DNA of 64,000 nt from Planctomycetota bacterium (GTDB lineage: Bacteria; Planctomycetota; Phycisphaerae; Phycisphaerales; SM1A02). The notes beneath the pieces were generated by a model that did no database searches, was not told the DNA's origin, and saw nothing but the letters and a program-made list of their open reading frames with translations. Location: positions 1-64,000 of the forward strand of contig QWPW01000010.1 of assembly GCA_003671025.1 (NCBI GenBank). The letters are read 5' to 3'. The translations under genes were made by a program, and so were the position numbers. The first letter of the stretch is position 1; each line of letters opens with the position of its first letter. Positions 1,901 to 63,850 of this stretch are shown piece after piece.

Positions 1901-1922
1901 AGATCAGACACAGATCAGACAC
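1901..1922. repeat. 11-nt tandem repeat, two copies, 3' of the DUF1573 gene
   Basis: The unit agatcagacac occurs twice head-to-tail at 1901-1911 and 1912-1922, 46 nt after the stop codon and just before the terminator hairpin. It belongs to the set of short tandem repeats in this window. Confidence 0.8.
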
Positions 1923-1926
1923 ACAA

Positions 1927-1963
1927 GAATCGAGCCGCAGTGAGTGCGGCTCGATTCGTTTTT
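1927..1963 (+). terminator. Intrinsic terminator of the DUF1573 gene
   Basis: A perfect 13-bp stem (gaatcgagccgca / tgcggctcgattc) with a 5-nt loop is followed by gttttt. The position, 70 nt after the DUF1573 stop, fits a rho-independent terminator for that gene. Confidence 0.9.
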
Positions 1964-2033
1964 GAGTCTTGACTGATGCGAGTGATGGGCAATGAAGTGA
2001 AGTGCGAACGCGCGGCGCGCTCGCAGTGCACGC

Positions 2034-2849
2034 TCACCAACCGAGTCCGGTCAGAATCATGCGCACGCCTGCGAACGCGAGCAGGATCGAGAGCACGAGG
2101 CGAGTCGCGTCGATGGGAAGGCGATAGACCAGCGCCGCGCCAATCGTTCCGCCCACCATTGCCAAGGGCGCGAGCAACCCTGCGAGCATGAGCGACTCGC
2201 GCGTGGTCAGTGGAGTTCCATCGGGGGTCGTGAGCGTCGCGATGCTCAGATTCTTCGCCAGCGCGCCGACTGCACAGGCCACGATCATCGCCGCGGCAGA
2301 ACTCGCGACCGCTTGGCGCAGGGGAAGTCGGCCGAACTTTCGCAGCAATGGAACCATGATCGCACCGCCGCCGATTCCTAAGAGGCCCGACGCGAAGCCG
2401 CCGGTGAGGCCGATGCCAACGGCGAGCGGCAGCGGACAACGCGCGTCAGGAGTGGTTGCGCAATCGGGCACGCGGCGGATGAGCGCAATCAGCTCGGAAA
2501 TGGCTGCAAAACACAGAAAAACGCCGAACACCGCCGCGAGTGGCTTGGGCGAAAACAGGTTGCTGATGAGCACTCCGGCGACGGCGGCGCCGGTAGTCGC
2601 CAGAGCCATGGCGGGGACGATGTCGCGGCGAATGGTCCCGCGCCCGCGATGTCGATTCGTCGCAGCGACGGCCACGAAGACGTTGGCGATCAGCGCCGCC
2701 GCTTGATAGAGGTGTTGGTTTGTCCCCAGTAAAAAAGTGAGCGCGGGGATGATGAATACTGATCCGCCGAGGCCCAGCAATCCGCCCAGAACGCCGCCAG
2801 TCAGGCCAATGGCCATGATCGCGATCACTTGGAACGAAGACCAATCCAT
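2034..2849 (-). CDS. TauE/SafE family (TSUP) membrane exporter
   Basis: This 271-residue integral membrane protein has about eight hydrophobic segments. It begins with a glycine-rich helix (GGVLGGLLGLGGSVFIIP) and repeats that pattern near residue 155 (GFASGLLGIGGGAIMVPLL). The duplicated G-rich signature is diagnostic of the TauE/SafE (4-toluene sulfonate uptake) permeases, which move sulfite, sulfonates or other small anions across the inner membrane. The substrate cannot be read from sequence. It is convergent with the DUF1573 gene and divergent from the 3D-domain gene, hence likely transcribed alone. Confidence 0.9.
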   Translation of the reverse strand: MDWSSFQVIAIMAIGLTGGVLGGLLGLGGSVFIIPALTFLLGTNQHLYQAAALIANVFVAVAATNRHRGRGTIRRDIVPAMALATTGAAVAGVLISNLFSPKPLAAVFGVFLCFAAISELIALIRRVPDCATTPDARCPLPLAVGIGLTGGFASGLLGIGGGAIMVPLLRKFGRLPLRQAVASSAAAMIVACAVGALAKNLSIATLTTPDGTPLTTRESLMLAGLLAPLAMVGGTIGAALVYRLPIDATRLVLSILLAFAGVRMILTGLGW

Positions 2850-3278: not shown

Positions 3279-4142
3279 ATGCCCTCACCCATGAGACAAC
3301 TTCACGCGATGAACTCGACTGCGCCTGCGCGTCGATGGTTGCGTGAAATGCTGGGCGATTTGGGGCCGCGCATGTGGGCGATGTTTGTGGTGATGACGTT
3401 CGCCGGCGCGCTCGCCGCGCTTGGCATCGCGACGGGTCAGCAGGCATCGAGTTCGCCGACGGAGTCGGCAACGGAATCAGCGACCGAATCTACGACTGAC
3501 TCTTCAACCGCCTCGACCACAGAATCTCAGCGCGCACCAGACAAGGCCGCGCGCGCGCAGAGTGCGCTCGACACGATTTTGAATCCGCGTTCGACGAGCA
3601 CTTCCAACACCAGCGCCCGCGACTCGCGCGAAACATCTGCTCAGAATTCGGCCAAGCCCGCGCGAAGTACCCACAACGACGCGGCCACGTCCACGCGCAA
3701 AGACGCAAACGCCGAACCGACGAGCGCCTCGATACGCGAGTCCGCGTCAACCTCCACATTCAACGGTCGCCCCATCCGCATTGCGCGCACGATTCGCATG
3801 AAAGTCACCGCGTACAGCCCCGATGCGCAGAGTTGTGGCGCGAGCGCCGATGGCATCACCGCGAGCGGGTACTCAGTCTTCACCAACGGCGGCAATCTCG
3901 TCGCCGCCGATCCGAAGTTGCTTCCTCTTGGCTCGATCGTGAGCATTCCTGGTTACGCAGGCGATGCAGTCGTCCCCGTGCTCGATGTTGGTGGAGCGAT
4001 CAAGGGCAACAAACTTGATGTGCTTTATGCGACCCACGCGCGAGCGCGGCAGTGGGGCGTGCAAGAACTCGAAGTCATCGTGTGGGAATACGCCGACGGC
4101 CAACCTTCGGGATTTAAGCGCTTGCGCCGCAATTCCAAATGA
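3279..4142 (+). CDS. Membrane-anchored 3D-domain (RlpA/MltA-fold) protein
   Basis: This 287-residue protein has one N-terminal transmembrane helix (about 32-52). A long Ser/Thr-rich extracytoplasmic linker (about 55-165) follows, then a C-terminal 3D domain (about 172-285). The domain shows VTAYSPD, ITASG, VAADPKLLPLGS, VLDVGGAIKGN and KLDVLY, which supply the conserved aspartates that name the family. The 3D domain is a double-psi barrel found in lytic transglycosylases (MltA) and resuscitation/cell-wall proteins, so a peptidoglycan-directed role is likely but unproven. ATG codons at 3279, 3291 and 3309 are all possible starts. The stop codon lies within a 13-nt duplication. Confidence 0.82.
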   Translation: MPSPMRQLHAMNSTAPARRWLREMLGDLGPRMWAMFVVMTFAGALAALGIATGQQASSSPTESATESATESTTDSSTASTTESQRAPDKAARAQSALDTILNPRSTSTSNTSARDSRETSAQNSAKPARSTHNDAATSTRKDANAEPTSASIRESASTSTFNGRPIRIARTIRMKVTAYSPDAQSCGASADGITASGYSVFTNGGNLVAADPKLLPLGSIVSIPGYAGDAVVPVLDVGGAIKGNKLDVLYATHARARQWGVQELEVIVWEYADGQPSGFKRLRRNSK

Positions 4143-4164
4143 CGTTCGATCGTGACGTTCGATA
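4140..4164. repeat. 13-nt duplication containing the stop codon of the 3D-domain gene
   Basis: The unit tgacgttcgatcg starts with the TGA stop at 4140-4142 and is repeated at 4153-4164 with one mismatch at the last compared base. The second TGA is 13 nt downstream and therefore not in frame with the first. Confidence 0.75.
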
Positions 4165-4224
4165 CCAACTGAACAAGGGCGCAAGCGTGTCTGCTCGGCG
4201 AGCATTGCTCGCATTGGCATGGGT

Positions 4225-5781: not shown

Positions 5782-5897
5782 ACACACGGTTGTAACCGTG
5801 GTTTTCGCCGAGTCTGGTTTTCACCACACTTTTACTGACGAGAATTTTTGGTGCGCGTCGCGACACATCAACGCGCGCATCACCCTTGACGAACGCA

Positions 5898-11281: not shown

Positions 11282-11584
11282 TGGAGCTTCAAGGGACAGT
11301 CGGTCAACAGGTGAGAAGGGCGGTCATCGTAACGAGGCTTCTCGGTTGCCGTTCCCTTCGAGAAAGGATGCCGAGTTCCTTCGAGTGGGGGTTCGCGCAC
11401 ACCGATCACCATTCAAGTGCCAACGCGCGAGCGTTCAATTCATATCACGCAAATGGGACTGAACTGCGCAGCGGTGCTGTTGTGACCCGATGCGCAGAAT
11501 CTGCGCGAAGGCACCGTACGATGTGACCGACTGCTCGCAGAAGCGGCGGTGAACTGGGTCACTTTCGAGAAACGAGTTCGGCGC

Positions 11585-12721
11585 ATGGGTGCAACGCATG
11601 ATTCAACGACGTCTTCGGCAAGCGATGGCGCTCACGGCGCGCCCGCAGTCGAAGGCAACGCCAAGGCGAGTGGACCGTGGACAGTGCGCGCGCTGTTGGC
11701 ATGGATAAACGGATTCCTCAAGGATCGCGATGTCGACAGCCCGCGTTCGATCGCGGAGATCTTGCTCGCGAGCACGCTGCAGATTGAACGACTCAAGTTG
11801 TACATGGAGCCTGATCGAGTGCTCGATGCGAGTGAACTCACTCACCTGCGCGCGTTGGTTGCGCGCGCGGGTCGACACGAGCCGGTGCAATTCTTGGTGG
11901 GACGCTGTCATTTCCTCGGGCGTGAGTTTGAAGTGGCGCCTTGCACTTTGATTCCGCGTCCCTGCACCGAGTTGTTGGTCGACCGCGCACTCGAGTGGTA
12001 TCGCGCACGCAGTGGCGGCCCAAGCGCACGTGACGGCACTGGCGCACGTGACGGCACTGGCGCACGTGTGTTGGAATTGGGGACGGGCACCGGATGCATC
12101 GCAGTCTCGCTCGCGCTTGGACTGCGCGCCATTGATCGTCCGCAAGGAAGTGGATGTCGTCCACTGGCGAGCAGCGCCTCGACGCGCGCGGATGTTGCTG
12201 CGTCAATTCCGACGATCGCGATCAATGGCGAATCGAGCAGCGAGACAACATCGTCGAGCGAAGTTGCCCTCGTTGGTGCGACGCTCACGATCATCGCGAC
12301 CGACATTGTTGCGGAGGCCGTTGCGTTAGCGACGCGCAATGCCGCGCGTTTAGGCGCGTCGATGATTGACTTCCGTGTGGGCGATCTGTGGGCACCAGTG
12401 GAGGGAGAGGCAGCGTTTGATCTGCTCGTTTCCAATCCGCCCTATGTCACCGATGACGAGTATCTCGCGCTTGACCGCAACGTGCGCGAGTACGAACCCG
12501 CGTCGGCGCTGCGTGGAGGTCGCGACGGACTCGATGTGGTGCGGCGCATCGCACAGTCTGCGCCAACGCGCGTGGCCAGTGGCGGCATGGTGTTGCTCGA
12601 GATCGGTTGGAAGCATCGCGACGGCGCGATCGCGCTCTTTCGCAACAGTGCGTGGCGCGACGTCGAAGTGCTGCAAGATGGCGACGCGCTCGATCGTGTG
12701 TTGGTTGCGCATCGCGTATAG
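11585..12721 (+). CDS. prmC: Release factor N5-glutamine methyltransferase
   Basis: This enzyme methylates the GGQ glutamine of peptide-chain release factors using SAM. An N-terminal helical domain (about 32-125) precedes the Rossmann domain. The SAM motif is VLELGTGTGCIAVS (162-175), and the catalytic NPPY motif at 284-287 sits in FDLLVSNPPYV. The protein is longer than the family norm (378 versus about 280 residues). This is due to an N-terminal Ser/Gly-rich tail and a roughly 45-residue low-complexity insert (about 183-230) between SAM motif I and the acidic loop. A 6-residue tandem repeat (ARDGTG twice) lies just before motif I. ATG 11585 is chosen; GTG 11549 is an alternative. Confidence 0.9.
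   Translation: MGATHDSTTSSASDGAHGAPAVEGNAKASGPWTVRALLAWINGFLKDRDVDSPRSIAEILLASTLQIERLKLYMEPDRVLDASELTHLRALVARAGRHEPVQFLVGRCHFLGREFEVAPCTLIPRPCTELLVDRALEWYRARSGGPSARDGTGARDGTGARVLELGTGTGCIAVSLALGLRAIDRPQGSGCRPLASSASTRADVAASIPTIAINGESSSETTSSSEVALVGATLTIIATDIVAEAVALATRNAARLGASMIDFRVGDLWAPVEGEAAFDLLVSNPPYVTDDEYLALDRNVREYEPASALRGGRDGLDVVRRIAQSAPTRVASGGMVLLEIGWKHRDGAIALFRNSAWRDVEVLQDGDALDRVLVAHRV
12024..12068. repeat. 18-nt in-frame tandem repeat inside prmC
   Basis: Two perfect copies of the 18-nt unit gcgcacgtgacggcactg (12024-12041 and 12042-12059) are followed by half a copy. They add ARDGTG units directly in front of the SAM-binding loop, with reading frame preserved. Confidence 0.85.
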
Positions 12722-20020: not shown

Positions 20021-20055
20021 CGCATCGCATCGCGTCGCATCGCATGGCATCGCGT
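20021..20055. repeat. Simple repeat of gcatcgc-type words after the DUF4340 stop
   Basis: A 15-nt word, cgcatcgcatcgcgt, is followed by an expanded near-copy (cgcatcgcatggcatcgcgt). The tract fills the gap between two convergent genes, starting 2 nt after the TGA of the DUF4340 gene. Confidence 0.65.
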
Positions 20056-20078
20056 CGTTGAGAGGCGCCTCGATGGCG

Positions 20079-25364: not shown

Positions 25365-25932
25365 GGAAGTAATCCTGCGAAAGTGCTGCGCGTAACAGCG
25401 CGGCGTGGGGAGCGGTCAAGTCACCCAAGTAGAGCCAGAATGGCACCGAGTTTGGGCGGGTGAATGGACAAGTTTTCGTTTGTTTGCGCGGCGAGTGTCG
25501 CGCGTCTTAGCGAACGCGCGACGATGCGCTCCTCAACCAGTCGCGCGGGCGTGAACCCGTGCATGATCGCGTGCATGCTCGAGGGCATGCACAGTCGGTA
25601 GAGGTTGAGTCGTCAGCGTGAGTCAAGTAAGTTCTCGCGATCGCCGAATTTTCGGCGAGCCGCGCAGTCTAGAACTTCCCTCGAGTGAATGCAACAGCGT
25701 TGATCGTGAGAAGGATGGACTCGAGCACAGGGGTGTTGTCCTTGTATCGAGGCTCGCTCGCCCTATGCGTTCTTAGAGGCGGACTCATCGGGCGCAGTGG
25801 AGGGGGAATCGCTCAACACCGGCGGTTCACTGCGGTTCACTGCGGGAATCGCCATCAAACCGCGTCTCCCATAACAGGTGGCGATCCGTTGCCTAACTGC
25901 GGCAGCGCGGCGCCTAGAGCCAGAAATGCGCC
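25365..25932. other. Spacer upstream of fusA, regulatory region
   Basis: This 568-bp stretch has no convincing gene. It contains an 8-bp inverted repeat (gtcgcgcg / cgcgcgac, 25497-25522), a palindromic cgccgaattttcggcg element near 25643-25658, and a 10-nt tandem repeat at 25823. It should hold the fusA promoter and leader. Open frames inside it are short and lack domain similarity. Confidence 0.5.
25823..25845. repeat. 10-nt tandem repeat
   Basis: Two perfect copies of cggttcactg (25823-25832 and 25833-25842) are followed by cgg. The repeat lies in the spacer about 88 nt beyond the 3' end of the RNase HII-like gene. Confidence 0.75.
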
Positions 25933-26886
25933 TCAGACCGAACGCACAAAGTCGCGTTGCGGAATGTCGGTGGCCGCAAGAATGGTGGTGACTTCGGCGA
26001 GGAAGCGGCGGCCGTCTTCGACATAGCCCGCGGTCGGAGCGAGCGCGGGCATGTGTCCGATGAAGAACGCGTTGAGGCGACGCATGAAGAGTTCGCGCAC
26101 GTACTTCGCGCCCATCGACGCGAGTGCTACTGGAAGATGACGTTCTTCAGCACCGACCTCGAACGAGATGATGAGTCCTTCGCCGATCTCGTAGGTCGAT
26201 TGATCTTCACTCTCGCTGATGGTGCGCACCGGCGCGCCGCGCGCAATGTGCGTCTCGAGTTCTTCCGCGTATTGCGCGCGTCCACCTTGGCGATCGACGG
26301 CGATGAACGCGGGTTCGTCGCCGCGCAGCAAATCAACCGTGCGCACCGCGTCAAAGATGAGTGACATGTTCACCAGGGCTTTGTTGCGCAGCGTTGCGTA
26401 GAGCGCGTTGAATGCGGGAGCATCAAGCGCAGCAACACCAAGGTGCGCGAGCGAGGCACCGCTGTGCGCATAAGCGCGCGCGACCATGTTGCGCGCAATG
26501 GTGACATCGAATGGACTGAGTGAAACAGGGAGCGCAAGCGCAGTCGCGTGCCACGGAGTCGCGGCACTGATGCGCGTGTGCACGCCGAGTTCGTCGAACA
26601 ACGCGCGATCATCGGCGAGAGAATTTTCGCTGCAAAACGCGAGGACTCCGCGCTCGAGATGAATGAGCGGATCTTCTCCCGCGCGCTTGAGTTTCTTGCT
26701 GTCGCTGATAGGAATGCGTCGCCGCGAGTCTTTCACTTTGCGACACACCGCGCGATCAAAGAGCTTCCACAAGTCGGGCGGAGTTGCGATGTCGCGGTGA
26801 TCGTTCACGCGAAACGCGCTCGCGCCAATGCACAGCGGACCAAGAAGGGGGCCGTATCCAGCTTCGTCGACGCCTGCGTAAATCAC
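25933..26886 (-). CDS. RNase HII-like ribonuclease H superfamily protein
   Basis: Three blocks recall ribonuclease HII, which removes ribonucleotides from DNA. They are an N-terminal GVDEAGYGPLLGP (family GxDEAGRGPLAGP; catalytic Asp7/Glu8), ISDSKKL (about 60-66), and a C-terminal AKYVRELFMRRLNAF with a FIAVDRQGG Asp block before it. At 317 residues it is longer than bacterial RnhB (about 200), and the conserved Arg of DEAGRG is Tyr. It is therefore a divergent relative whose activity should not be assumed. GTG 26886 overlaps the mnmA stop as GTGA and places the catalytic motif at the very N-terminus, as in RnhB. ATG 26925 is the alternative. Confidence 0.75.
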   Translation of the reverse strand: MIYAGVDEAGYGPLLGPLCIGASAFRVNDHRDIATPPDLWKLFDRAVCRKVKDSRRRIPISDSKKLKRAGEDPLIHLERGVLAFCSENSLADDRALFDELGVHTRISAATPWHATALALPVSLSPFDVTIARNMVARAYAHSGASLAHLGVAALDAPAFNALYATLRNKALVNMSLIFDAVRTVDLLRGDEPAFIAVDRQGGRAQYAEELETHIARGAPVRTISESEDQSTYEIGEGLIISFEVGAEERHLPVALASMGAKYVRELFMRRLNAFFIGHMPALAPTAGYVEDGRRFLAEVTTILAATDIPQRDFVRSV

Positions 26887-28055
26887 GCGGGGATAGTAGT
26901 GGCTCCGCGCGTCTCGCTGATCCATCCGCCGCCGAGGATGCGCTCCTCTTGGTCGTAACAGACCACTGCTTGCCCAGGAGCAACGCCAGGCTCTGCGTTG
27001 TCAAACGCAACGGACAGGATGCGCACACCGTCGCGCGAGGTGATGGTCGCGCGTGCGGGGATGGCTCGTCCGTGCGAGCGCACTTGCGCGGTGCACACGA
27101 TCGTTGCGTCGCTGGTCGCGTCATTGGTGTCGTCGATGGCGCCATCAACCGCGCCATACCACACGACTTCTGCAGCCTCGACGCCGTGCACATCAAGCGA
27201 CTCACGCGGACCAACCACCACCGTGTTGCGCGCCGTGTCTTTACGAATCACGTAGAGCGGAATCGATGCCGAGACGCGAAGTCCCTTGCGTTGACCGACG
27301 GTGAAATGCTGATGTCCCTCGTGACGACCGAGCTCGTGCCCTGACTCGTCTTCAATCGCGCCCTCGCTGAATCGCGTGGGCGCGCGACGCTCGAGGAACG
27401 CGGCGTAGTCATCGGGAACGAAGCAAATCTCCTGCGAATCAGGCTTGTCGAACACAGGCAACCCGAGCTCGCGCGCGACTTCGCGCACCGCGGGTTTTTC
27501 CATCTCGCCAATGGGCAACATCATTTTGGAAAGCGCTTCGCGGCCGATTCCAAACAGAACATACGACTGATCTTTGGCAACATCGAGTCCGCGACGAATG
27601 CGCGCGCCGTACGCAGAATGCTCAACCCGCGCGTAGTGGCCGGTCGCGACGGCGGCGCAACCGAGTTGTTCGGCGTACTGGCGCAGCTTGCCAAACTTCA
27701 GCCAATCGTTGCAACGCACGCAGGGATTGGGCGTGCGGCCCGCGTGGTACTCCTCTTCGAAGTAGGAAATGATGCGACCGAAGTCGTTGCGAAAATTCAC
27801 GACGTAGAAGGGGACATCAAGTTTGGCCGCGACCAAGCGCGCGTCCGCGGCGTCGTTGATTGAGCAACAACCTTGATGGCCAATCTTGGCCGCGCTACCG
27901 AATCGGCACTGCGAACCTTCAATCGGCGTCTCGAGTTCTTCGCCCGGACTTCCCAGTCGCATGAAGCAACCGATGACCTCATGGCCATCGCGTTTGAGCA
28001 GCGCCGCCGCGACAGAACTGTCGACGCCGCCGGACATGGCCAAGAGGATCTTCAC
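26883..28055 (-). CDS. mnmA: tRNA-specific 2-thiouridylase
   Basis: This 390-residue enzyme inserts sulfur at U34 of tRNA Lys/Glu/Gln. It has the PP-loop SGGVDSS (8-14) for ATP, the catalytic cysteines Cys112 (NPCVRCN) and Cys211 (SQEICFVPDD), and the GHYARV tRNA-binding segment. The C-terminal barrel domain (about 255-385) contains HFTVGQRKGL. A Cys-rich insert (about 50-64, with CRFGS and GCCSIND) lengthens the N-terminal half. Translation starts at GTG 28055. The stop overlaps the start of the RNase HII-like gene, so the two are coupled. Confidence 0.95.
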   Translation of the reverse strand: MKILLAMSGGVDSSVAAALLKRDGHEVIGCFMRLGSPGEELETPIEGSQCRFGSAAKIGHQGCCSINDAADARLVAAKLDVPFYVVNFRNDFGRIISYFEEEYHAGRTPNPCVRCNDWLKFGKLRQYAEQLGCAAVATGHYARVEHSAYGARIRRGLDVAKDQSYVLFGIGREALSKMMLPIGEMEKPAVREVARELGLPVFDKPDSQEICFVPDDYAAFLERRAPTRFSEGAIEDESGHELGRHEGHQHFTVGQRKGLRVSASIPLYVIRKDTARNTVVVGPRESLDVHGVEAAEVVWYGAVDGAIDDTNDATSDATIVCTAQVRSHGRAIPARATITSRDGVRILSVAFDNAEPGVAPGQAVVCYDQEERILGGGWISETRGATTIPA

Positions 28056-28088
28056 GATGGCACTCTATCGCGCGCGTTCATGCGCGCA

Positions 28089-28124
28089 CCTTGCGCATCA
28101 CCTTGCGCATCACCTTGCGCATCA
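28089..28124. repeat. Three perfect 12-nt repeats carrying the aldolase stop codon
   Basis: On the minus strand the 12-nt unit tgatgcgcaagg occurs three times without a mismatch from 28124 down to 28089. The first TGA is the stop codon of the aldolase gene. Because the period is a multiple of three, TGA recurs in frame at 28112-28110 and 28100-28098. Confidence 0.95.
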
Positions 28125-29192
28125 CGCGACGGTGACTTGTGGACAGAGGTAAACGTCTTGAATCGCGTTGAGCAACTTTACGCCATCGGCAAATGGCTTT
28201 TGGAAGGCTTTTCGGCCTGATATCAGACCGGTTCCGCCTGCGCGCTTGTTGATGACCGCGGTGCGCACCGCGTCCGCGAGATCGTTCGCGCCGCTCGCTC
28301 CACCAGAGTTGATCAGTCCCGCTCGACCGCAGTAGCAGTTGAGCAACTGATAGCGGCAGAGGTCAATCGGATGATCGCTGGCAAGATCGCTGTACATGCG
28401 CTTGTCGAGTTTGCCGTAGCTTGAATCACCCGAGTTGAGCGCGAGGAAACCGCCGTTGAGTTCAGGCAACTTCTGTTTGATGATGTCGGCCTTGATGGTG
28501 ACACCAAGATGATTCGCTTGTCCGGTGAGGTCAGCGGACGTGTGATAGTCCTTGCCATCAATCTTGAATGAGTTGTTGCGCAGGTAGCACCACAACACAG
28601 TGGCCATGCCCAGCTCATGCGCTTCATCGAATGCGCGCGCGACTTCCACGATCTGTCGCGCTGATTGATCGCTGCCGAAATAAATCGTGGCACCCACTGC
28701 AGTGGCGCCGAGATTCCACGCTTCGCGCACCGAGCCAAACATAATCTGATCGAACTTGTTGGGGTAGGTCATCAACTCGTTGTGATTGAGCTTGACCAGA
28801 AACGGGATCTGATGCGCGTACTTGCGCGACACCGAAGAGAGCACGCCAAAGGTTGAGGCGACTGCGTTGCAACCGCCCGCGATGGCGAGCTTGACGATGT
28901 TCTCGCCGTCGAAGTACGCGGGGTTCTTCGCGAAGCTCGCGCCCGCGGAGTGTTCGATTCCCTGATCGACGGGGAGGATGGACATGTATCCCGAGTTGGC
29001 CAATCGTCCCGTGCCGTAGAGCGCGGCCAGACTGCGCAACACTTGTGGGTTGCGATCGGTTGGGCCAAAGATGTCGTTCACAAACGTCGGCCGCGGCAGA
29101 TGCAGCAAGTCCTTGGTGACCTTCGCTTGATGCGTCAGGAGCGTGTCGGCGTCAGTACCAAGGAGCGATTGAATCGAGCTGAATGTCGACAT
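28122..29192 (-). CDS. fbaB: Class I fructose-bisphosphate aldolase (DhnA/FbaB type)
   Basis: This 356-residue enzyme cleaves fructose 1,6-bisphosphate through a Schiff-base lysine. The archaeal/DhnA-type signature is seen in [20 protein letters not shown] and [23 protein letters not shown] and the C-terminal phosphate-binding INSGGASG segment complete the barrel. ATG 29192 is preferred over an upstream frame start (29225) because an AGGAA element lies 7 nt before it and the extra residues do not look native. It shares its strand with mnmA downstream, separated only by the repeat-containing 66-bp gap. Confidence 0.93.
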
Positions 29193-29281
29193 GTAATTTC
29201 CTGCAACAAGTTCGAGTGGGATCAAGTGATGTGGACGCGCAAGACAAATTCATCCTGATCGTCGCGCGCGAAATGTAACAG

Positions 29282-31805: not shown

Positions 31806-31923
31806 CCGAACATGTCGTCATCGGCGGGCTGGCTAAACGGTGAGGCTCGCTTGGTGCGGCGCTTGTTTCATGGTGCAGCGTTGTGCGCATCAGTGTCGTT
31901 GCTGATGACACGATTGCGATCGG

Positions 31924-31950
31924 CGAACGCGCATCGAACGCGCATCGAAC
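31924..31950. repeat. 11-nt tandem repeat before gpsA
   Basis: Two perfect copies of cgaacgcgcat (31924-31934 and 31935-31945) are followed by cgaac. The tract is upstream of the preferred gpsA start; the gpsA frame happens to be open across it. Confidence 0.75.
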
Positions 31951-31975
31951 CTGCGTGACGGGATATGCTCCGTTG

Positions 31976-33052: not shown

Positions 33053-33074
33053 CGCAACAGTTAGCGCAACAGTT
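33046..33074. repeat. 12-nt tandem repeat containing the gpsA stop codon
   Basis: Two perfect copies of cagttagcgcaa (33046-33057 and 33058-33069) plus cagtt. TAG of gpsA (33050-33052) recurs in frame at 33062-33064. Confidence 0.92.
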
Positions 33075-33853: not shown

Positions 33854-33939
33854 AGAGTGGCGTGCCTGCGTTTTTCCGTAAGTGGTGAAGTGGTGGTCAG
33901 TGCGATCGATGGCGAATCCACGTTGGGAAACGCGCCCGT

Positions 33940-34008
33940 GCGCCATTGCGTGCGCCATTGCGCGCGCCATTACGCGCGCCATTACGCGCGCCATTACGCG
34001 CGCCATTT
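33940..34008. repeat. Array of five 12-nt repeats between hpf and ptsN
   Basis: Five full copies of a 12-nt unit (gcgccattacgc with first two copies varying at the g/a and t/c positions) and a 9-nt remnant fill 33940-34008. It lies 22 nt beyond the hpf stop and 87 nt upstream of ptsN. Read on the minus strand each unit contains taatgg or caatgg. This is the longest array in the window. Confidence 0.95.
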
Positions 34009-34029
34009 ACTGAATTGATCGGTCGGCTC

Positions 34030-34332
34030 TTATTGTCCGTGCTTGTGGTCGCGCACGCGTGACTTGTGATCAGTGAGTTGTCGTGCTTCGCGATCGATGG
34101 CAAGGTCAATCGCCGCGTACAGATCTTGGTCTCGGTAGTTCACAATGAAGTCGTCGTGATGCTCGACATCCACGATGAATTCGACATGGAAACCGTTGGC
34201 CTCCTTCTCGATGACGCAGTCGATCGACAGCACCTTGTCGAAGTAGCGCACCAGCTTCGCAGCCTTGGTGCGAACATAGGTGTCGATGGCCTCGGTGATC
34301 TCGATGTGCTTGCCCTTGACATTGATCTGCAT
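34030..34332 (-). CDS. hpf: Ribosome hibernation promoting factor, short form
   Basis: This 100-residue protein is of the HPF/YfiA class, which binds in the decoding region of the 30S subunit and silences ribosomes in stationary phase. The beta-alpha-beta pattern VKGKHIEITEAIDTYVRTKA, then VEFIVDVEHHDDFIVNY and DLYAAIDLAIDREARQL, is intact. It lacks the C-terminal dimerisation domain of long HPF. Its linkage to ptsN and HPr is the classic PTS-Ntr gene order. Translation starts at ATG 34332. Confidence 0.93.
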   Translation of the reverse strand: MQINVKGKHIEITEAIDTYVRTKAAKLVRYFDKVLSIDCVIEKEANGFHVEFIVDVEHHDDFIVNYRDQDLYAAIDLAIDREARQLTDHKSRVRDHKHGQ

Positions 34333-43277: not shown

Positions 43278-43817
43278 ATGCGACCTCCGCGCCACGCGAT
43301 TGTGGGGATTCAGGGAGTTTTTACGATCTCGAGTCGCTCCGAGCCGAAAGAAACAGTAGAAATTAAGTTCTCCGTGGCATCAATTCAACCAATCCTCGCT
43401 TCTCCCGCTCTTGGTGCGCCCACCCCCGCGTGTGGCGTGCAGGGAATTGCGGTCTCGCCGTTGGCGATTCATAACTTGGTTGTGATGGAAACGGTGTTGC
43501 GAGCGGATGGGTGCGTCGCAGCAGGCGCATCGATGCCCAGCGGGACAATTGCGGCGGCGCAGGTGCCGTGTACGCCGGTCAAACCGACGACACCGACAAC
43601 CACTGCGACAACCACTGCGACAACAACTGCGACAACAACTGCGACAACCACGATTCCGGCGTACACGCACGCCTCGCCCTCAAATGTCGTGCTTCCACGA
43701 CTTCACGAGGGCAAGACCATCCCAGGACCTGCCGAATGGCGCGCGCTCGAACAGCGCGCGTCTTCTTTTAGGTTGCGTGGAAGTGGTGGCTGCATTGGCC
43801 GACCAGGCGAGCGCTGA
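43278..43817 (+). CDS. Uncertain protein with Thr-rich repeats, 179 aa
   Basis: An open frame from ATG 43278 encodes a 179-residue chain with a Thr/Ala repeat tract (about 105-125) produced by a 12-nt DNA repeat. There is no signal peptide, membrane segment or recognised domain. The codon pattern is unconvincing in its first and last thirds. It may be a fast-evolving small gene or simply spacer. Confidence 0.3.
   Translation: MRPPRHAIVGIQGVFTISSRSEPKETVEIKFSVASIQPILASPALGAPTPACGVQGIAVSPLAIHNLVVMETVLRADGCVAAGASMPSGTIAAAQVPCTPVKPTTPTTTATTTATTTATTTATTTIPAYTHASPSNVVLPRLHEGKTIPGPAEWRALEQRASSFRLRGSGGCIGRPGER
43595..43642. repeat. Four 12-nt tandem repeats (gacaacmactgc)
   Basis: Four copies of gacaaccactgc/gacaacaactgc (43595-43606, 43607-43618, 43619-43630, 43631-43642) are followed by a degenerate partial copy. 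The first two and last two copies differ by one base. Confidence 0.92.
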
Positions 43818-52722: not shown

Positions 52723-53715
52723 GTGCAACCAGAAATTCTGCTCGCGCTTTCCGCATCGTCCGTTCGACCGCTCTTGGCGGCGAAGGATCCGCGCTGCCCT
52801 GATATTTATTCGCTGCCGCAGTTCGTCGCCACCGATTTGCAGTTGCGCGGACTGAATCTCCCCACGGATTTGCTCGTCGGTTTCGGATTGCCTGCGATCG
52901 ATCGCCTGCGCGATGAAGCGGATCGCGCGCACTGCCCCGTGCTCTTGCTCACCGAAGAAACCCCCATCGATTTCACCGATCGCGGTCCGGGTTGGCTGCG
53001 TTCGCTTGATCGACTCAAGCGCTTGGGCACAGCCGCGAATCGACTCGGTTGCCCTTCGATTGCGCTCCGTGCATCCGGCCCCGCGACCGACGCGGCGTTC
53101 GAGGCGACTGCCGCGGGAATCAAGATTGCGCTGCGCGAACTCGATCGCTTCGAACTCATGCTTTTACTGGCGCCCACCGAAGGACTTACCTTCGAGGCCG
53201 CCAAGATGACCGAGCTGATCAAGAAGATCGGCGGCTTTCGCATCGGAAGTTTCCCAAGCTTCGCGCACGCGCATGCGACGGGGAATCTCGACAAAACGCT
53301 GCGCACATTGGCGCCCTACGCGTCGGCGATTTCCGCGAGCATCCGCGGCTTCGAGAAAGATGGAGTGCACGACGGATTCAGTCTCGAGGAGTGCATGGAT
53401 AGCATTCGTCGCGTTGGCTTTGTGAACACGCTCACGCTTGAATTTGTGGGTCGCGGCGAATGGGGTGCGACGAACCAGGTTGCGCTCGCGAGCAACGTGC
53501 CGTCGAGCGAACCTGTTGCGGTTGAAGTTGGCGCAACGAAATCGTCGAGCAAGAAGTCGACCGCCAAGACCGCAACGAAAACGGCAGGCAAGTCCGCAGG
53601 CAAGTCCGCAGGCAAGCCCGCCGTCGATGTCATCGCCGAGTTGGAAACTGCGCGTCGCATCCTGAGTGCGTCAATCGTCGAGCCCGAGTTGGCGTTTGAT
53701 GAAGAGGAGGAGTGA
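52723..53715 (+). CDS. Xylose-isomerase-like TIM-barrel protein
   Basis: This 330-residue protein resembles sugar phosphate isomerase/epimerase barrels found in Planctomycetes. Recognisable stretches are GLPAIDRLRDEADRAHCPVL, LGTAANRLGCPSIALR and IGSFPSFAHA, with an acidic final strand VNTLTLEFVGRGEWG. The barrel ends near 255. A Lys/Thr/Ala-rich linker with three GKSA-type repeats and an acidic tail (EEEE) follow. The metal-binding residues are not all obvious, so enzymatic activity is uncertain. It starts with GTG and its TGA is followed directly by the TTG start of cmk. Confidence 0.7.
   Translation: MQPEILLALSASSVRPLLAAKDPRCPDIYSLPQFVATDLQLRGLNLPTDLLVGFGLPAIDRLRDEADRAHCPVLLLTEETPIDFTDRGPGWLRSLDRLKRLGTAANRLGCPSIALRASGPATDAAFEATAAGIKIALRELDRFELMLLLAPTEGLTFEAAKMTELIKKIGGFRIGSFPSFAHAHATGNLDKTLRTLAPYASAISASIRGFEKDGVHDGFSLEECMDSIRRVGFVNTLTLEFVGRGEWGATNQVALASNVPSSEPVAVEVGATKSSSKKSTAKTATKTAGKSAGKSAGKPAVDVIAELETARRILSASIVEPELAFDEEEE
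53587..53622. repeat. Three in-frame 12-nt repeats encoding GKSA
   Basis: Copies of ggcaagtccgca at 53587-53598 and 53599-53610 and a third with two changes at 53611-53622 encode GKSA-GKSA-GKPA within the basic linker of the TIM-barrel protein. Confidence 0.88.
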
Positions 53716-56449: not shown

Positions 56450-56509
56450 TTCGCGCAATTCGTTGCATCCCGCGAGCGTTTGCGTCGTTCCATCGATGCC
56501 GACCGAACG

Positions 56510-56563
56510 GTCAGACATGAGTCAGACGCGGGTCAGACGCGGGTCAGACACAGGTCAGAACAC
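56510..56563. repeat. 11-nt tandem repeat array after the CCA-type gene
   Basis: Units gtcagacatga, gtcagacgcgg, gtcagacgcgg and gtcagacacag occupy 56510-56553, followed by gtcagaacac. The array begins 60 nt past the preceding stop codon. The central two copies are identical. Confidence 0.92.
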
Positions 56564-57877: not shown

Positions 57878-57935
57878 GTATTTGTCGCAAGTTTCAAGTC
57901 GGGCGTGCAGTGATTCCCGCGCGCCTAAGGGAAGT

Positions 57936-57971
57936 CTGATCGCAAGACTGATCGCAAGCCTGATCGCAAAC
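57936..57971. repeat. Three 12-nt repeats between the two ClpP-fold genes
   Basis: Copies ctgatcgcaaga, ctgatcgcaagc and ctgatcgcaaac lie head-to-tail at 57936-57971, differing only in the last two bases. They end 12 nt before the ATG of the second paralogue, in the place expected for its ribosome-binding site. Confidence 0.93.
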
Positions 57972-57983: not shown

Positions 57984-59348
57984 ATGAAACATAACACTGT
58001 TCTTCGCTCGCTCACGGTTTCAACTCTGGCACTCGGGCTTTCGTTGGGCGCCCTGTCGAGTGCGACGGCTGCGTTTCCCAACGCGCCACGCATGGGAGAT
58101 GTCAAGCTCGCCAACGGCGGAGTGTGGAAGGGCGATGTGGGCGCGCAAGTTCGTGCGACCTTCATGGTCAATGGAAAAGAAGTCATCGTTGAAGGCAAAG
58201 TCACCAAGCTCGACAAGAGCCTCGTCGTGATTGAGGTCACAGAGGGCGGCAAGTTGGTCAAGAAGACCATCCTCTCGCTCGATCTGAAAAAGATGGAGAC
58301 GCTCGCGGCAGCTGCTGCTGGCGCATCCACTCCTGGCGTCGCGACGACAACCATTGCGAGCGGAGCGGGCGCCAAAACCGCAAGCACCGCGACCACCGCT
58401 GCAACGACCACGACTGATGCCACTGCCGCGAAGATCCCCAGCGTGTTCGTGCTTCCATGGGAAGGCACCGTCGGCATCGGCGCGCGTCACGACGAAATCG
58501 AAATGATCGCCAAGGAAGCGGACAAGCTCGGTCCTGGCCAGATCATCGTGCTCGAAGTCAACAGTCCCGGTGGACTGGTGACCGAAGGCGACAAGATCAA
58601 CGTCACGCTTACCGAACTGAAGAAGCGTCATCGCGTCGTCGCGTGGATCAAGAAGGCGATCTCCGCGGCGGCGTTCACCAGCCTGCACTGCGACGAGATT
58701 TACTTCATGCGCGTTGGCGCGCTCGGTTCGATCACGATGTTCGCGGGACAGACCGCGATCTCCGGCGCTGAGCTGCAAGCTTGGCTCAAGATGCTCGGCG
58801 AAGTGTGCGAACTCGGCGGCCGTCCCGCGATCGTTGGTCAAGCGATGGTCACCAATCCGGTTCTGTGCAGTTACGACCGCGACGACGATGGCAACATCAC
58901 GTGGTATTCGACACTCGAGGGCAAGTACGACCTCTCCGACGAGAAGCAGAATCTCACCCTCAACTGCGACAACGCGCTGCATTGCAAGTTTTCGGATGGG
59001 ACTGCGGACACCGTCGAAGAACTCGCCGCGTGCATGCAGTTGAAGGAATGGAAAGAAGCGAGCGATGTCGGCCGCAAGATCCACGAGGATTGGCAGCGCA
59101 CGCTCAAGCAGTGTGCGGAAATCAAACCGCTGCTGCTCAACGACTATCAGAATCCCGGTGGCGCCGATGCAGTTGCGCAGATCGGTAATCAGATCAAGGC
59201 CATCACTGAGATCTTGAAGTGGTACGACCGTTGCTATCCCGGCATGGTCTACGAAGCGCCCAATCTCCCACCAGATAAGAAGCCGCTGCAAGATGAGCTC
59301 GAAGCGTTGAAGAAGCGCTTGGGAAATATCAAGCGCAACCAGCGCTGA
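57984..59348 (+). CDS. Secreted ClpP/NfeD-fold serine peptidase-like protein, paralogue 2
   Basis: This 454-residue protein has a signal peptide (about 1-30), an SH3-like beta segment (about 35-105) and an Ala/Thr linker. A NfeD/SDH-type domain follows (about 150-300): IIVLEVNSPGGLVTEGDKI gives the oxyanion PGG loop, and KAISAAAFTSLHCDEIYFM holds the candidate nucleophile Ser. GALGSITMFAG follows, and a helical C-terminus (about 380-450) completes it. The motif set is better preserved than in its neighbour, so this one may be an active periplasmic peptidase. A Cys-rich patch (CELGG, CDNALHC) is unusual. Its stop codon is inside a 21-nt tandem repeat. Confidence 0.82.
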   Translation: MKHNTVLRSLTVSTLALGLSLGALSSATAAFPNAPRMGDVKLANGGVWKGDVGAQVRATFMVNGKEVIVEGKVTKLDKSLVVIEVTEGGKLVKKTILSLDLKKMETLAAAAAGASTPGVATTTIASGAGAKTASTATTAATTTTDATAAKIPSVFVLPWEGTVGIGARHDEIEMIAKEADKLGPGQIIVLEVNSPGGLVTEGDKINVTLTELKKRHRVVAWIKKAISAAAFTSLHCDEIYFMRVGALGSITMFAGQTAISGAELQAWLKMLGEVCELGGRPAIVGQAMVTNPVLCSYDRDDDGNITWYSTLEGKYDLSDEKQNLTLNCDNALHCKFSDGTADTVEELAACMQLKEWKEASDVGRKIHEDWQRTLKQCAEIKPLLLNDYQNPGGADAVAQIGNQIKAITEILKWYDRCYPGMVYEAPNLPPDKKPLQDELEALKKRLGNIKRNQR

Positions 59349-59392
59349 CGCAACACAAGCACGCGCTGACGCAACACAAGCACGCGCTGACG
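59342..59392. repeat. 21-nt tandem repeat containing the stop codon of the peptidase-like gene
   Basis: Two perfect copies of a 21-nt unit beginning gcgctgacgc (59342-59362, 59363-59383) and a 9-nt partial copy. The TGA stop at 59346-59348 recurs in frame at 59367-59369 and 59388-59390. Confidence 0.94.
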
Positions 59393-59426
59393 ACGCGAGC
59401 CGTTCACGCGAAACATTTCAATCAAC

Positions 59427-59455
59427 AACGCCCTGCGTATTTCGCAGGGCGTTTT
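59427..59455 (+). terminator. Intrinsic terminator after the ClpP-fold gene pair
   Basis: An 11-bp perfect stem (aacgccctgcg / cgcagggcgtt) with a tattt loop ends in a short T-run (gttttc). It lies 78 nt after the stop of the second paralogue. Confidence 0.85.
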
Positions 59456-59511
59456 CCTAGGTGAGTTGTCGCGTACTTGCGCGGTGACATCATCCACATG
59501 AGGATGCATTC

Positions 59512-60159: not shown

Positions 60160-60228
60160 GTGAGCGTGTGATGTGTGATGCGATGGGATCGTGATTGCGC
60201 CCGCGGGTCGCGATACGACGCGACCAAC

Positions 60229-61266: not shown

Positions 61267-61566
61267 GCGTGGGCTTTGGTTTCAGGTGAAACGTGTCATG
61301 AGCATCGCGGGCATCGGTCGAGCGCGCCGCGTCTTGCGCCGTTGTCGTCGCGCTTGGAAGGCGACCCGAATTGTTTCGCAGCGAGGAGAAATGTCCGAGT
61401 GCGAAAGCGATGAGAACTCACCCCTGCACACTCGACGCGCGTACCTTACAGTACCAATCCATCCGTTGAGGATGGATCCATTTCTTGCCCGCGAGGGCGT
61501 GTCAAGGCCTTGCGTGCGCCTCGCGTGCGCGGGACCACAACCTGTTCGAACCAATTCCACGCACCG
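61267..61566. other. Divergent promoter region before the HflK-like gene
   Basis: This 300-bp gap separates divergent genes. No small gene, tRNA or terminator was recognised in it. A TTCGAA word at 61545 is not flanked by a T-stem. Confidence 0.45.
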
Positions 61567-63771
61567 ATGCGCATTGACCACCACGCCTACCAGCGGGCCA
61601 CGGGCGTCGCCGCCTCAGGCTTCTTCACACAGCTCGTCATCGCGCTGTTGCTCCTCGTTTTTGGAAAGTCGACCGGCGATTCGGCGAGCGTCATCGCGTC
61701 CTCATGGGCGTTCTGCGGCCTGGTCGTATGGCTTGGCTTGGTGTTGGTCTTTCATCAACATCGACTCGAGCGTCTTGAGAATTTGGAGATGGACGCGGGC
61801 ACGCGCCTCGATGACTCGGGACGTTTGTTCACTCCCGATGAAGCGCGCGTAGCCAAGCGACGTCTCGGCTTGATGCACTCGGTGCTCATGCCGATCGCGA
61901 GTTGCCTCTACGCGATGCTCTTGGTGGGAATGGCGTGGGGCGTGCTGTTGTGGTTCAGCCGCGTCGATGAAGCGAATGCCGATCTTGGACAATTCACCAC
62001 CACATCAGCCGCCGGTTGGCAATTGGCAGTCGCCTTCGGTTGCGCTCTCGCGTCGTTCATCTTCTCGCGATTTCTCGCGGGAATGAGCGTGCAACCAGCG
62101 TGGAGCAATCTGCGCGGCGGCGCCGCGGTGATGGTGGGAAATGCGTTGGTCTCGATGGCCGTCGGTGTGGGCACGATCTTCACGATGCTCGCCGACGATA
62201 AGAAGGAAGGCGTTGCCGTTCTCGAGGGCATCTCCTACGGCATCGCGATCTTCATGATGGTGGTCGCTGCCGAAACCACGCTGAACTTTCTGCTCAACCT
62301 CTATCGACCACGACGCGCCGGCGAAACGGCGCGTCCTGCTTTTGATTCGCGTCTGCTCAGTTTGTTTGCTGCGCCCGATTCCATCGTGCGTTCCATCAAC
62401 GAAGCGGTGAACTACCAGTTCGGTTTCGACATCACCAGTTCGTGGGGCTATCAACTGCTGCTGCGCAACTTCGTGCGCTTGCTTGCAGTGGGCGTGGTGG
62501 TGGTGTTTGCGCTCACTACGTTGGTGGTGGTTCAACCGCAAGAGCAAGCGTTGCGCTTGCGCTTTGGTCGGCCTATCGGCGAGGTCTATCAAGGCTCGCC
62601 CATGTCCAAGTTGCCTTGGCCCATCGACACCGCGATTGTGCGCGACGTGAATCGCGTGCGTGAGTTGCCGCTGGGACTCGTGCGTCCCGTGCGCGCGGGC
62701 GACGTGATCGTCTGGGGCGAAGAAACGATCGAGATCGATCAGATCACGAATCTGTTCTTAGTCGCCGCGGGTTCGCGCGCGGCCGATGCGCAAGCCGCGC
62801 AACGCGCCGCAGGATCATTGCTCGCTCCCAACGCGACGTTTGCGGGAAACGCAGCATTGGGGTCTGGCAGCGATCGCAGTTCTGAGCAAGGCGTTGCGCT
62901 CGCCACTGATCAATTCGCAGTGGTCGAAGCGGACATCGTGTTGCAGTATCGCGTGCGTGATCGCGAGCTCACCAAGTTCCTTGAGTTCTCCAACGACACT
63001 AAGAGTCGACGCACTGCGCTCGATATGCGCGAGCGTGCGATGAAGGCGATCGCGTTGCGTGAAGTCACGCGCGCGTTGAGTGTGCGCACGCTTGACGAAG
63101 TGCTTTCGCCGCCGATTGACGCGCCGCTGGTCGATGCGTTGGCGCAGGGAATTCAGCAGGCATTTGATGCATATGACTGTGGCGTTGAAGTGGTGGGACT
63201 GAGCATTCCGCGACTGCGCCCGCCGGGAAAAGACGGCGGCAAGTTCGAAGAACTTTCGGTCGCGCGTCAGAACGGCCGTCGTCAATTGGAAATGGAAACC
63301 AGCACCGTCAACACGACCATGAGTCTCATCATTGGCAGCGCCGCCGCCGCCGACGAGATGGTCAAGGGTATTGAAGAACTCGCACGCTTGGAGTCGGCCG
63401 CGAAGTTGCCTGACGGAGCCAACGCGCGTGTGGCCGCCGATGCGTTGCGCAACAAACTCGAGCAGCAATTGCTCGACTCACGCGCGCAAGCGGCGAGCGT
63501 GATTTCGGGCGCGCGCGCCATGCGTTGGACCGCGCTGATGGATGCGCAAGCGATTGCCCAAGATGTCCTCGGTCAAGCGCCTGCGTGGGAAGTTGACCCT
63601 GAGCTCTATCGCACGCGTCGCACGATGGAGGCGCTCGCCGATGCGCTGTCGAGTGTGCGCATCAAGTACATGTTGTTGCCCGATGCCGCGCGTGTGCGTG
63701 TCGACATCGACATGCAAGAGCCTTCGGCGGGACTCAACCTCGGCGACTATCTCGAGAAGAAACAAGAGTGA
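61567..63771 (+). CDS. hflK: HflK-like SPFH protein with extended multi-pass N-terminus
   Basis: This 734-residue protein is nearly twice the usual HflK length. Residues 1 to about 270 hold five or six membrane helices (first at about 15-35) with short loops. A further helix at about 310-332 (LLAVGVVVVFALTTLVVV) leads into the SPFH/band-7 domain: QPQEQALRLRFGRPIG, SKLPWPIDTAI and FAVVEADIVLQYRV. A helical stalk (about 560-680) follows. HflK and HflC form cage-like complexes around the FtsH protease. ATG 61567 starts just before the first helix. Confidence 0.88.
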   Translation: MRIDHHAYQRATGVAASGFFTQLVIALLLLVFGKSTGDSASVIASSWAFCGLVVWLGLVLVFHQHRLERLENLEMDAGTRLDDSGRLFTPDEARVAKRRLGLMHSVLMPIASCLYAMLLVGMAWGVLLWFSRVDEANADLGQFTTTSAAGWQLAVAFGCALASFIFSRFLAGMSVQPAWSNLRGGAAVMVGNALVSMAVGVGTIFTMLADDKKEGVAVLEGISYGIAIFMMVVAAETTLNFLLNLYRPRRAGETARPAFDSRLLSLFAAPDSIVRSINEAVNYQFGFDITSSWGYQLLLRNFVRLLAVGVVVVFALTTLVVVQPQEQALRLRFGRPIGEVYQGSPMSKLPWPIDTAIVRDVNRVRELPLGLVRPVRAGDVIVWGEETIEIDQITNLFLVAAGSRAADAQAAQRAAGSLLAPNATFAGNAALGSGSDRSSEQGVALATDQFAVVEADIVLQYRVRDRELTKFLEFSNDTKSRRTALDMRERAMKAIALREVTRALSVRTLDEVLSPPIDAPLVDALAQGIQQAFDAYDCGVEVVGLSIPRLRPPGKDGGKFEELSVARQNGRRQLEMETSTVNTTMSLIIGSAAAADEMVKGIEELARLESAAKLPDGANARVAADALRNKLEQQLLDSRAQAASVISGARAMRWTALMDAQAIAQDVLGQAPAWEVDPELYRTRRTMEALADALSSVRIKYMLLPDAARVRVDIDMQEPSAGLNLGDYLEKKQE

Positions 63772-63803
63772 CGGCGCGGATCCTAGAGATCAATCAACAC
63801 AAC

Positions 63804-63850
63804 GATCAACACAACGATCAACGCAACGATCAACGCAACGATCAACGACC
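63804..63850. repeat. 12-nt repeats between hflK and the next gene
   Basis: Copies gatcaacacaac (63804-63815), gatcaacgcaac (63816-63827) and gatcaacgcaac (63828-63839) are followed by gatcaacgacc. Degenerate copies also precede the tract. They fill most of the 133-bp gap after the hflK stop. Confidence 0.94.

Follow-up and report, generated by a model that had tools for sequence, protein, structure and literature searches.

Short tandem duplications with a preferred 11–12-nt step mark a genus of Planctomycetota

Head-to-tail duplications of 10–13 nt are a trait that marks the planctomycetotal genus studied here (Phycisphaerales; SM1A02). In spacers they show a sharp mode at 11–12 nt and a rate far higher than in the relatives sampled, short direct repeats accompany them, their copy number differs between sister species and their positions are not conserved. 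They reflect a duplication process that is active, guided by microhomology and equipped with a ruler, rather than a conserved gene-end element, and likely arise through replication slips that favour a step of 11–12 nt. As to how this happens, we tentatively favour re-pairing of primers or flaps on the lagging strand as the maker of the duplications in this genus, with a probability of about 0.42.

Results

Tandem repeats in the window

A sequence-only reading of the window (the whole 64,000-nt stretch analysed, positions 1 to 64,000 of contig QWPW01000010.1, assembly GCA_003671025.1) had listed fifteen short tandem repeats. All fifteen are present, and 13 were returned by TRF with the period that had been given (Table 1). 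The tract at 20021 exists but not with the 15-nt unit ascribed to it; its best unit is 5 nt, so the period of 15 is a multiple. In the window, 15 TRF arrays score 50 or more, where 40 second-order Markov shuffles average 1.2 (maximum 4); for period 10–13 the numbers are 9 and 0.07 (maximum 1). This density lies far above that of shuffled sequence, the comparison that the reading had proposed. Its claim that most tracts lie at gene ends also holds: 11 of the fifteen (1901, 4140, 20021, 25823, 28089, 33046, 33940, 56510, 57936, 59342 and 63804) overlap a stop codon or follow one within 90 nt, and the other four comprise two coding tracts (12024 and 53587), one within an uncertain ORF (43595) and one on the 5' side of a gene (31924). 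Neither an Rfam family, at gathering cut-offs, nor a tRNA was found in the window.

Table 1. Tandem-repeat tracts and neighbouring features of the window
Feature	Position	Context	Detection
11-nt tract, 2.2 copies	1900-1923	Convergent spacer, 44 nt past stop of plus-strand gene 596-1855	TRF
Terminator-like hairpin with T run	about 1928-1963	Immediately after tract 1900-1923	Read by eye
13-nt tract, 1.85 copies	4140-4163	Overlaps stop of 3D-domain gene (end 4142), convergent spacer	Absent from TRF list at score 30
18-nt tract, 2.5 copies	12024-12068	In frame within PrmC-like gene 11549-12721	TRF
Pentamer CGCAT-like array, 7.4 copies	20021-20057	Directly past stop at 20019, convergent with RibD-like gene	TRF
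10-nt tract, 2.4 copies	25822-25845	87 nt past stop of RNase HII-like gene; GCGG at either end	TRF
Long RNase HII-like gene, 330 aa	25933-26925	Minus strand
MnmA-like gene	26883-28055	Minus strand; tract 28087-28125 stands upstream
12-nt tract, 3.2 copies	28087-28125	Overlaps stop of DeoC-like gene (28122-29225, minus strand)	TRF
11-nt tract, 2.5 copies	31924-31950	5' side of GpsA-like gene (ORF 31883-33052; domain match begins near 32012)	TRF
12-nt tract, 3.0 copies	33039-33074	Overlaps GpsA-like stop codon 33050-33052, convergent with HPr gene	TRF
12-nt tract, 5.7 copies	33940-34007	22 nt past stop of S30AE-domain gene (34030-34332, minus strand); unit in two variants	TRF
12-nt tract, 4.8 copies	43594-43651	Within Thr-rich ORF 43278-43817 (plus strand), putative gene	TRF
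12-nt tract, 3.2 copies	53584-53621	Near C-terminal end of gene 52723-53715 (plus strand)	TRF
11-nt tract, 4.6 copies, 85% matches	56509-56559	About 59 nt past stop of PolyA_pol-domain gene (end 56449)	TRF
12-nt tract, 3.2 copies	57932-57969	54 nt past stop at 57877	TRF
21-nt tract, 2.4 copies	59342-59392	Overlaps stop 59346-59348 of NfeD-like gene	TRF
Hairpin with T run	about 59427-59455	3' of tract 59342-59392
12-nt tract, 4.6 copies	63793-63847	21 nt past stop at 63771	TRF

The genus compared with its relatives

Spacers of eight genomes of the genus hold 75 near-full tandem duplications of 10–13 nt in 213 kb, with a peak at 11–12 nt, against 4 in 47 kb for ten relatives outside the genus (P = 2e-4), none in 55 kb for E. 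coli and 1 in 52 kb for S. meliloti pSymB; gene calls and noncoding sums, those of E. coli included, come from a simple in-house gene finder, and spacer types carry errors. When all places are counted, tracts of step 10–13 number 111 in 1.64 Mb within the genus and 22 in 1.45 Mb outside it (rate ratio 4.5, P about 2e-13), whereas tracts of step 9 are equal at 27 and 23. The four spacer tracts outside the genus likewise have steps of 11 and 12, which may mean that a general process is at work that is only stronger in the genus. Inside genes, the genus is not clearly special: there are 31 coding tracts of step 12 in the genus (21.7/Mb) and 7 in the ten outside genomes (20.7/Mb), although 63 further named loci outside the genus (67 initially, less 4 that overlapped other samples) gave only 4 more in about 1.06 Mb.

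Every genome of the genus in the analysis is a draft of at least 30 contigs, which speaks for an assembly artefact. We give that explanation almost no credence, as the tracts occur in all eight genomes of the genus that were sampled and are rare in equally treated drafts of other genera, and the named contigs from the same genus stem from several projects.

A preferred step of 11–12 nt

Duplications in genus spacers were counted relative to pairs of 4-nt direct repeats. Per 1000 pairs, the rate reaches 20.6 for steps of 11 nt and 25.7 for steps of 12 nt, falls to 8.5 at 10 nt and 7.2 at 13 nt, and stays between 0 and 4.6 at the remaining distances between 7 and 30 nt. Pair numbers are nearly flat over these distances (813–1204), and the rate per pair at 11–12 nt is some 14–17 times the mean of the other steps. 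At steps of 10, 11, 12 and 13 nt, there are 8, 25, 34 and 8 spacer tracts respectively, compared with 3, 2, 31 and 0 coding tracts.

Ordinary slippage of the polymerase between short direct repeats could give this pattern if geometry, either about one helical turn or the duplex in the polymerase cleft, rather than primers set the step, and an altered polymerase, clamp or repair factor could account for the rise in the genus. Such slippage also fits the microhomology, the activity and the 11–12-nt mode, and imperfect repeats left after masking of the detected tracts likewise peak at 12 and 11 nt and, less strongly, at 21 and 24 nt. It is expected to favour short steps, however, and steps of 7–9 nt are as rare as those of 14–30 nt; the mode of 11–12 nt exceeds the 10.5 of a helical turn, and no factor that differs between genus and relatives was identified. 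Slippage is also the process named for intergenic tandem-repeat variation of Planctomycetota in passages of a Lake Biwa long-read study (PMC9426551). We consider it quite possible, though short of probable.

Flanking repeats and changes in copy number

The 53 two-copy tracts extend on average 4.5 nt past two full copies. The unit lies between direct repeats, and gains or losses of copies come in whole units. Two loci are one-copy in one sister species and multi-copy in the other, with ends GAG (13-nt step) and CGTGG (10-nt step); either state may be the ancestral one. Between the sister species G002 and G012, tract length differs at 7 of 9 tracts; the spacer orthologous to that of tract 33940-34007 differs at its edge by a 13-nt unit. 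These counts are limited to ten pieces of 93–98% identity (49,036 alignment columns, 1,841 substitutions and 30 indels, those from poorly aligned pieces excluded).

Footprints of excised mobile elements, or end-joining at staggered breaks, are another explanation; the tracts resemble in size the 10–13 bp target duplications left by some IS families. Both are very improbable, since 19 of 82 spacer tracts hold at least three perfect copies (up to 6.5), and the flanking direct repeats and whole-unit copy changes also argue against them. Ku was found in 8 of 61 genomes overall and in none of the 16 of the genus, and Ku/LigD end-joining was rejected on that account.

Placement and unit composition

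Tract density is 0.88/kb in convergent spacers, 0.32/kb in codirectional and 0.27/kb in divergent ones (convergent against codirectional, binomial P = 3e-4), where at least one of the 22 tracts typed as convergent is really codirectional: in its later runs the gene finder overlooked the MnmA-like gene, so that the spacer of tract 28087-28125 was wrongly typed. A stop codon is straddled by 13 of the 58 tracts of convergent and codirectional spacers, and codirectional spacers carry tracts outside the stretch that follows the stop as well. Placement at gene ends is real, although moderate in degree.

This placement would suit transcript-end elements under selection, such as terminator helpers, pre-terminator spacers or Rho loading sites; two window tracts stand just 5' of terminator-like hairpins, and the usual spacing of Rho sites fits a 12-nt period. 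We nevertheless judge such elements improbable. Orthologous spacer pairs in which both members carry a tract number 13 against 11.5 expected by chance (the pairs being non-independent), no more than chance, and a conserved role at given genes is not supported. The units are unrelated to one another, and 12-nt repeats are in excess inside genes as well, with 17 against 1.6 in codon-shuffled sequence. A Rho-like bias of C over G was absent from the sense strand of the units (C.269, G.262; flanks C.311, G.284); being neither C-rich nor G-poor, they were rejected as Rho utilisation (rut) sites. The sequence-only reading had offered two alternatives: active duplication or slippage, and a structural role for the tracts at the ends of transcripts. 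Density, length differences and flanking direct repeats speak for the former, while chance-level concordance and the unbiased units speak against the latter. Neither a shuffle-like density nor identical copy number combined with a lack of gene-end enrichment was observed.

Dispersed repeat families (REP, MIRU, MITE) were rejected for want of a common unit sequence, and the view that the tracts are not one dispersed family stands: the best 5-mer, GATCA, occurs in only 13 of 82 units (3.3 expected with a stop-proximal background; 13 of 73 against 2.4 in the smaller set). It was rejected as a common motif because it is weak in later sets (3 of 27 against 1.1; 1 of 13 against 0.2). TCA/TGA is firmer there (18 of 27 against 8.9; 8 of 13 against 4.4), an excess that may partly come from tracts straddling TGA stops.

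Discussion

Under the primer or flap re-pairing that we tentatively prefer, a stretch of 10–13 nt between short direct repeats would be the starting site. When lagging-strand fragments are joined, a primer-length piece of the nascent strand would re-pair one repeat away, turning ABA into ABABA. The step would then correspond to an RNA primer of about 10–12 nt, or to a flap made from it, and copies would accumulate in spacers because out-of-frame copies would be purged from genes, as the coding step counts set against those of spacers suggest. According to passages of the respective papers, the change from ABA to ABABA is the signature of yeast without the flap nuclease Rad27 (PMC5677150), and E. 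coli primers measure about 10 nt (PMC13220808). The same passages on rad27 (FEN1) yeast describe insertions with short direct repeats at their borders as well as copy changes of repeat units, as seen here. In contrast, the yeast has its flap nuclease deleted and B spans 1 to 91 bp (PMC5677150), whereas in the present case Pol I has its flap domain and the step stays tightly within 10–13 nt.

The Pol I 5' nuclease domain was found in 14 of 16 genomes of the genus. The organism's own Pol I is a single long open frame, in which we recognise what we take to be motifs known from its E. coli counterpart. With the domain present, the data do not agree with a plain loss of flap nuclease, and they lend no support to a lost Pol I 5' nuclease as the cause. 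In any joining of this kind the ligase must seal a strand whose RNA has been removed or replaced, a step on which the primer model is silent.

Bacterial minisatellites (VNTRs) resemble the present tracts in their head-to-tail copies and in a copy number that differs between close relatives; here, too, copies exceed chance (15 against 1.2) and copy number differs between relatives. Descriptions of VNTRs usually treat them as separate loci, whatever the period, whereas here one narrow period dominates the spacers of a whole genus. Tandem duplication is commonly regarded as background slippage in which no long step is preferred, and a mutation process with its own ruler would become open to direct study. 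The sharp spacer step is far weaker in the relatives sampled, so step length may be a heritable lineage trait. For freshwater Planctomycetota, passages of Okazaki et al. 2022 (PMC9426551) name polymerase slippage as the sole mechanism of intergenic tandem-repeat variation and give no unit length, genus or placement; relative to those passages the 11–12-nt mode and the genus restriction come from the present analysis. Some of the intergenic plasticity reported from Planctomycetota of lakes may stem from the process described here. The determinant of the size of small duplications becomes testable by comparing sister genera, and a named candidate gene is available for testing.

That candidate is a shortened RNase HIII-like gene, present in 16 of 16 genomes of the genus and in none of 45 relatives in a screen for genus restriction that covered five Pfam families and the RNase HIII-like protein. 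Its form in the genus scores 68.7 bits against NCBIfam rnhC, below the cut-off of 161.2, and covers positions 8–233 of the 284 of the profile; a C-terminal block found in 15 of 15 aligned longer-type homologues is missing from it. D104, E105, D207 and E235, which we take to be the catalytic acidic tetrad of RNase HIII, are invariant across 36 aligned sequences. The gene is a suggestive candidate cause of the duplications; the putative, C-terminally shortened protein would act on the RNA primers of the lagging strand. We think it rather unlikely that this enzyme misprocesses primers such that flaps of 11–12 nt are re-paired and joined, in which case the tandem duplications would record primer length. 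RNase HI is present in 16 of 16 genomes of the genus and in 40 of 45 others, and its loss was rejected as a cause. The RNase HII-like protein encoded in the window gave no match to solved-structure sequences at E 0.001; long forms resembling it, with weak matches, are found throughout the order.

Tandem tracts in the window and their turnover between sister species

All 15 tandem tracts named in the sequence-only reading are present in the window (C2:1-64000, from a draft genome of 3.25 Mb in 68 contigs), with two qualifications: the tract at 20021 is a pentamer array, and that at 4140, while present, has fewer than two copies. TRF arrays scoring at least 50 number 15 in the window, compared with 1.2 in second-order Markov shuffles, and those of period 10-13 nt number 9, against 0.07 in the same type of shuffle. 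The assigned placement at gene ends holds for 11 tracts, which overlap a stop codon or lie within 90 nt after one. Of the other four, two are inside genes, a third falls in an ORF whose status is uncertain and the fourth is on the 5' side of a gene.

Copy number was compared between two sister species of the genus, G002 and G012, over ten matched pieces of 93-98% identity (49,036 aligned columns containing 1,841 substitutions and 30 indels). Seven of the nine tracts with steps of 10-16 nt present in one or both species differ in length, the differences, unpolarised as gain or loss, being 12, 13, 13, 15, 2 x 10, 3 x 12 and 3 x 15 nt. Two loci have a single copy in one species and at least two in the other, with GAG and CGTGG at the borders, and in 53 two-copy tracts from the genus the repeat extends a mean of 4.5 nt past two full copies. 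The differing lengths and the short direct repeats at tract borders agree with the active duplication or slippage first proposed. There is good support for a real and active process of duplication that favours a step of 11-12 nt and is strong in the spacers of one genus.

An excess that is clear in the spacers of one genus

A tract was counted when the repetition of its unit fell short of the unit length by no more than one nucleotide. Stretches of the source genome and of seven same-genus genomes (1.64 Mb including the window, 213 kb noncoding) were compared with stretches of ten relatives at family or order level (385 kb, of which 47 kb is noncoding). In genus spacers, the steps of 10, 11, 12 and 13 nt have 8, 25, 34 and 8 tracts, respectively, and every other single step has 0 to 5. 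The spacers of the ten relatives hold four, two at step 11 and two at step 12; for steps 10-13, spacers in the 250 kb of E. coli K-12 searched have none and those in 350 kb of S. meliloti pSymB have one. With the outside totals enlarged by 63 further named loci, after removal of 4 overlapping ones, the genus has 111 tracts of step 10-13 over all places in 1.64 Mb, compared with 22 in 1.45 Mb of outside sequence (P ~2e-13), whereas both sides are equal at the 9-nt control step (27 and 23). As a marker we used the window protein at 29378-31405, whose closest relatives among named records mostly carry the label uncultured bacterium, Planctomycetota, Phycisphaera sp. or Phycisphaerales. In 65 kb of G031, the relative with the marker nearest to that of the genus (79% identity), spacers lack tracts of step 10-13; since few bases were sampled per outside genome, absence outside the genus should be read as rarity.

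Within genes of the genus, tracts keep the reading frame, with 31 at step 12 and only 3, 2 and 0 at steps 10, 11 and 13. That step-12 frequency (21.7/Mb) is similar to the one in the ten outside genomes (7 tracts, 20.7/Mb), although the 63 further loci contribute only 4 step-12 tracts when every place is counted. The higher frequency in the genus is thus clear for spacers but unsettled for genes. The in-gene parity counts against a purely genome-wide process.

Step preference and placement

Direct-repeat pairs are the raw material of slippage. In genus spacers, 4-nt pairs are nearly evenly supplied at distances of 7-30 nt (813 to 1,204 pairs each), yet duplications per 1000 pairs reach 20.6 at 11 nt and 25.7 at 12 nt, with 8.5 at 10 nt, 7.2 at 13 nt and 0 to 4.6 at all other distances in that range (28 events in 18,468 pairs, or 1.5 per 1000). 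The preference thus comes from the process or from survivorship, and not from the sequence. Imperfect repeats remaining after the detected tracts were masked also peak at 12 and 11 nt, which suggests long-standing turnover.

Tract density is 0.88/kb in convergent, 0.32 in codirectional and 0.27 in divergent spacers. In convergent and codirectional spacers together, 13 of 58 tracts straddle a stop codon; in codirectional spacers tracts are scarce close to the next start, with one in the 25 nt that precede it, and the others occur throughout the remainder. Orthologous spacers both carried a tract in 13 of 396 pairs, with 11.5 expected from the margins (the pairs are not independent), and the only tracts seen that look inherited from a common ancestor are those of G002 and G012. 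Our interpretation is a widely acting process in which copies are lost by selection where harmful, plus a moderate extra preference for convergent spacers. An argument against this interpretation is that tolerance alone may not account for the excess of convergent and stop-straddling tracts; nor may it explain the convergent density beside the 0.43/kb (21 tracts in 49 kb) found in the first 100 nt past the stop in codirectional spacers.

Candidate causes and an RNase HIII-like gene

Loss of the Pol I 5' nuclease domain is not supported as a cause (the domain was found in 14 of the 16 genus genomes), and two further simple candidates were rejected: loss of RNase HI (gene in 16/16) and Ku end-joining (Ku in 0/16). 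The genus encodes RNase HI, a long RNase HII-like protein and a third, RNase HIII-like gene.

Coordinates of the spacer and RNase H-related genes discussed
Feature	Location	Own genome	Remarks
Spacer between S30AE-domain gene and EIIA gene	window 33854-34029	tandem array, 12 nt x 5.7	
RNase HIII-like gene	L335:1201-1974	C25:33540-34307	about 255 aa, without C-terminal block
RNase HII-like gene	window 25933-26925 (-)		330 aa; Pfam profile matched over two short stretches only

Similar long RNase HII-like forms with weak profile matches occur across the order, and RNase HII activity of the window protein is putative. The RNase HIII-like gene was found in all 16 genus genomes (in G015 as a match of 67 residues only, at a contig end) and in none of 45 relatives. 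As this association of gene and trait is limited to one clade it counts as one event, and other genes will share the distribution. A search of 5.8 billion proteins listed 100 matches, of which 85 (P0002-P0086) share at least 50% identity; after a gap come 15 longer-type proteins at 31-38%. For P0003, a homologue with 83% identity, the predicted structure (mean pLDDT 92.6) best matches RNase H3 and HIII, and the acidic residues aligned with the active site, which we take to be catalytic, are invariant. Identity to nine same-genus copies is 53-63%, compared with 83-87% for the marker within the genus, indicating that the gene evolves fast.

In one pathway of Okazaki-fragment maturation in B. subtilis, RNase HIII cuts RNA primers internally (passages of PMC13220808 and PMC10191290); yeast without the flap nuclease Rad27 acquires ABA to ABABA insertions (passage of PMC5677150), and the E. 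coli primer is about 10 nt long (PMC13220808, same passages). Taken together, these suggest that a primer-length flap might be re-paired one repeat away and then joined. Polymerase slippage in which geometry sets the step is a serious candidate beside the primer-length flap.

Relation to known repeats, and minor observations

Searches of titles and abstract openings, with few subscription journals in scope, returned no description of such repeats, or of RNase HIII, in planctomycetes. The word "tandem" was not found in passages of a freshwater Planctomycetes genome paper (PMC6461901). A Lake Biwa long-read study (PMC9426551) ascribes tandem-repeat variation between genes of Planctomycetota to polymerase slippage, and unit length and genus are absent from its passages and section 10. 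Excerpts of a 2014 survey (PMC4060949) report an extreme excess of repeats with 6-11 bp units between the genes of three archaea, and a smaller one in several other genomes.

An element about 45-60 nt long (L277:12-71, on G002 contig C41) is dispersed over the contigs of G012, where it matches at more than 40 places, and has no hit in the 0.86 Mb of the source genome searched. At the edge of the S30AE/EIIA spacer (L151:13677-13740), G002 and G012 differ in length by one 13-nt unit; CGCCAT is common to this unit and to the 12-nt unit of the source genome.
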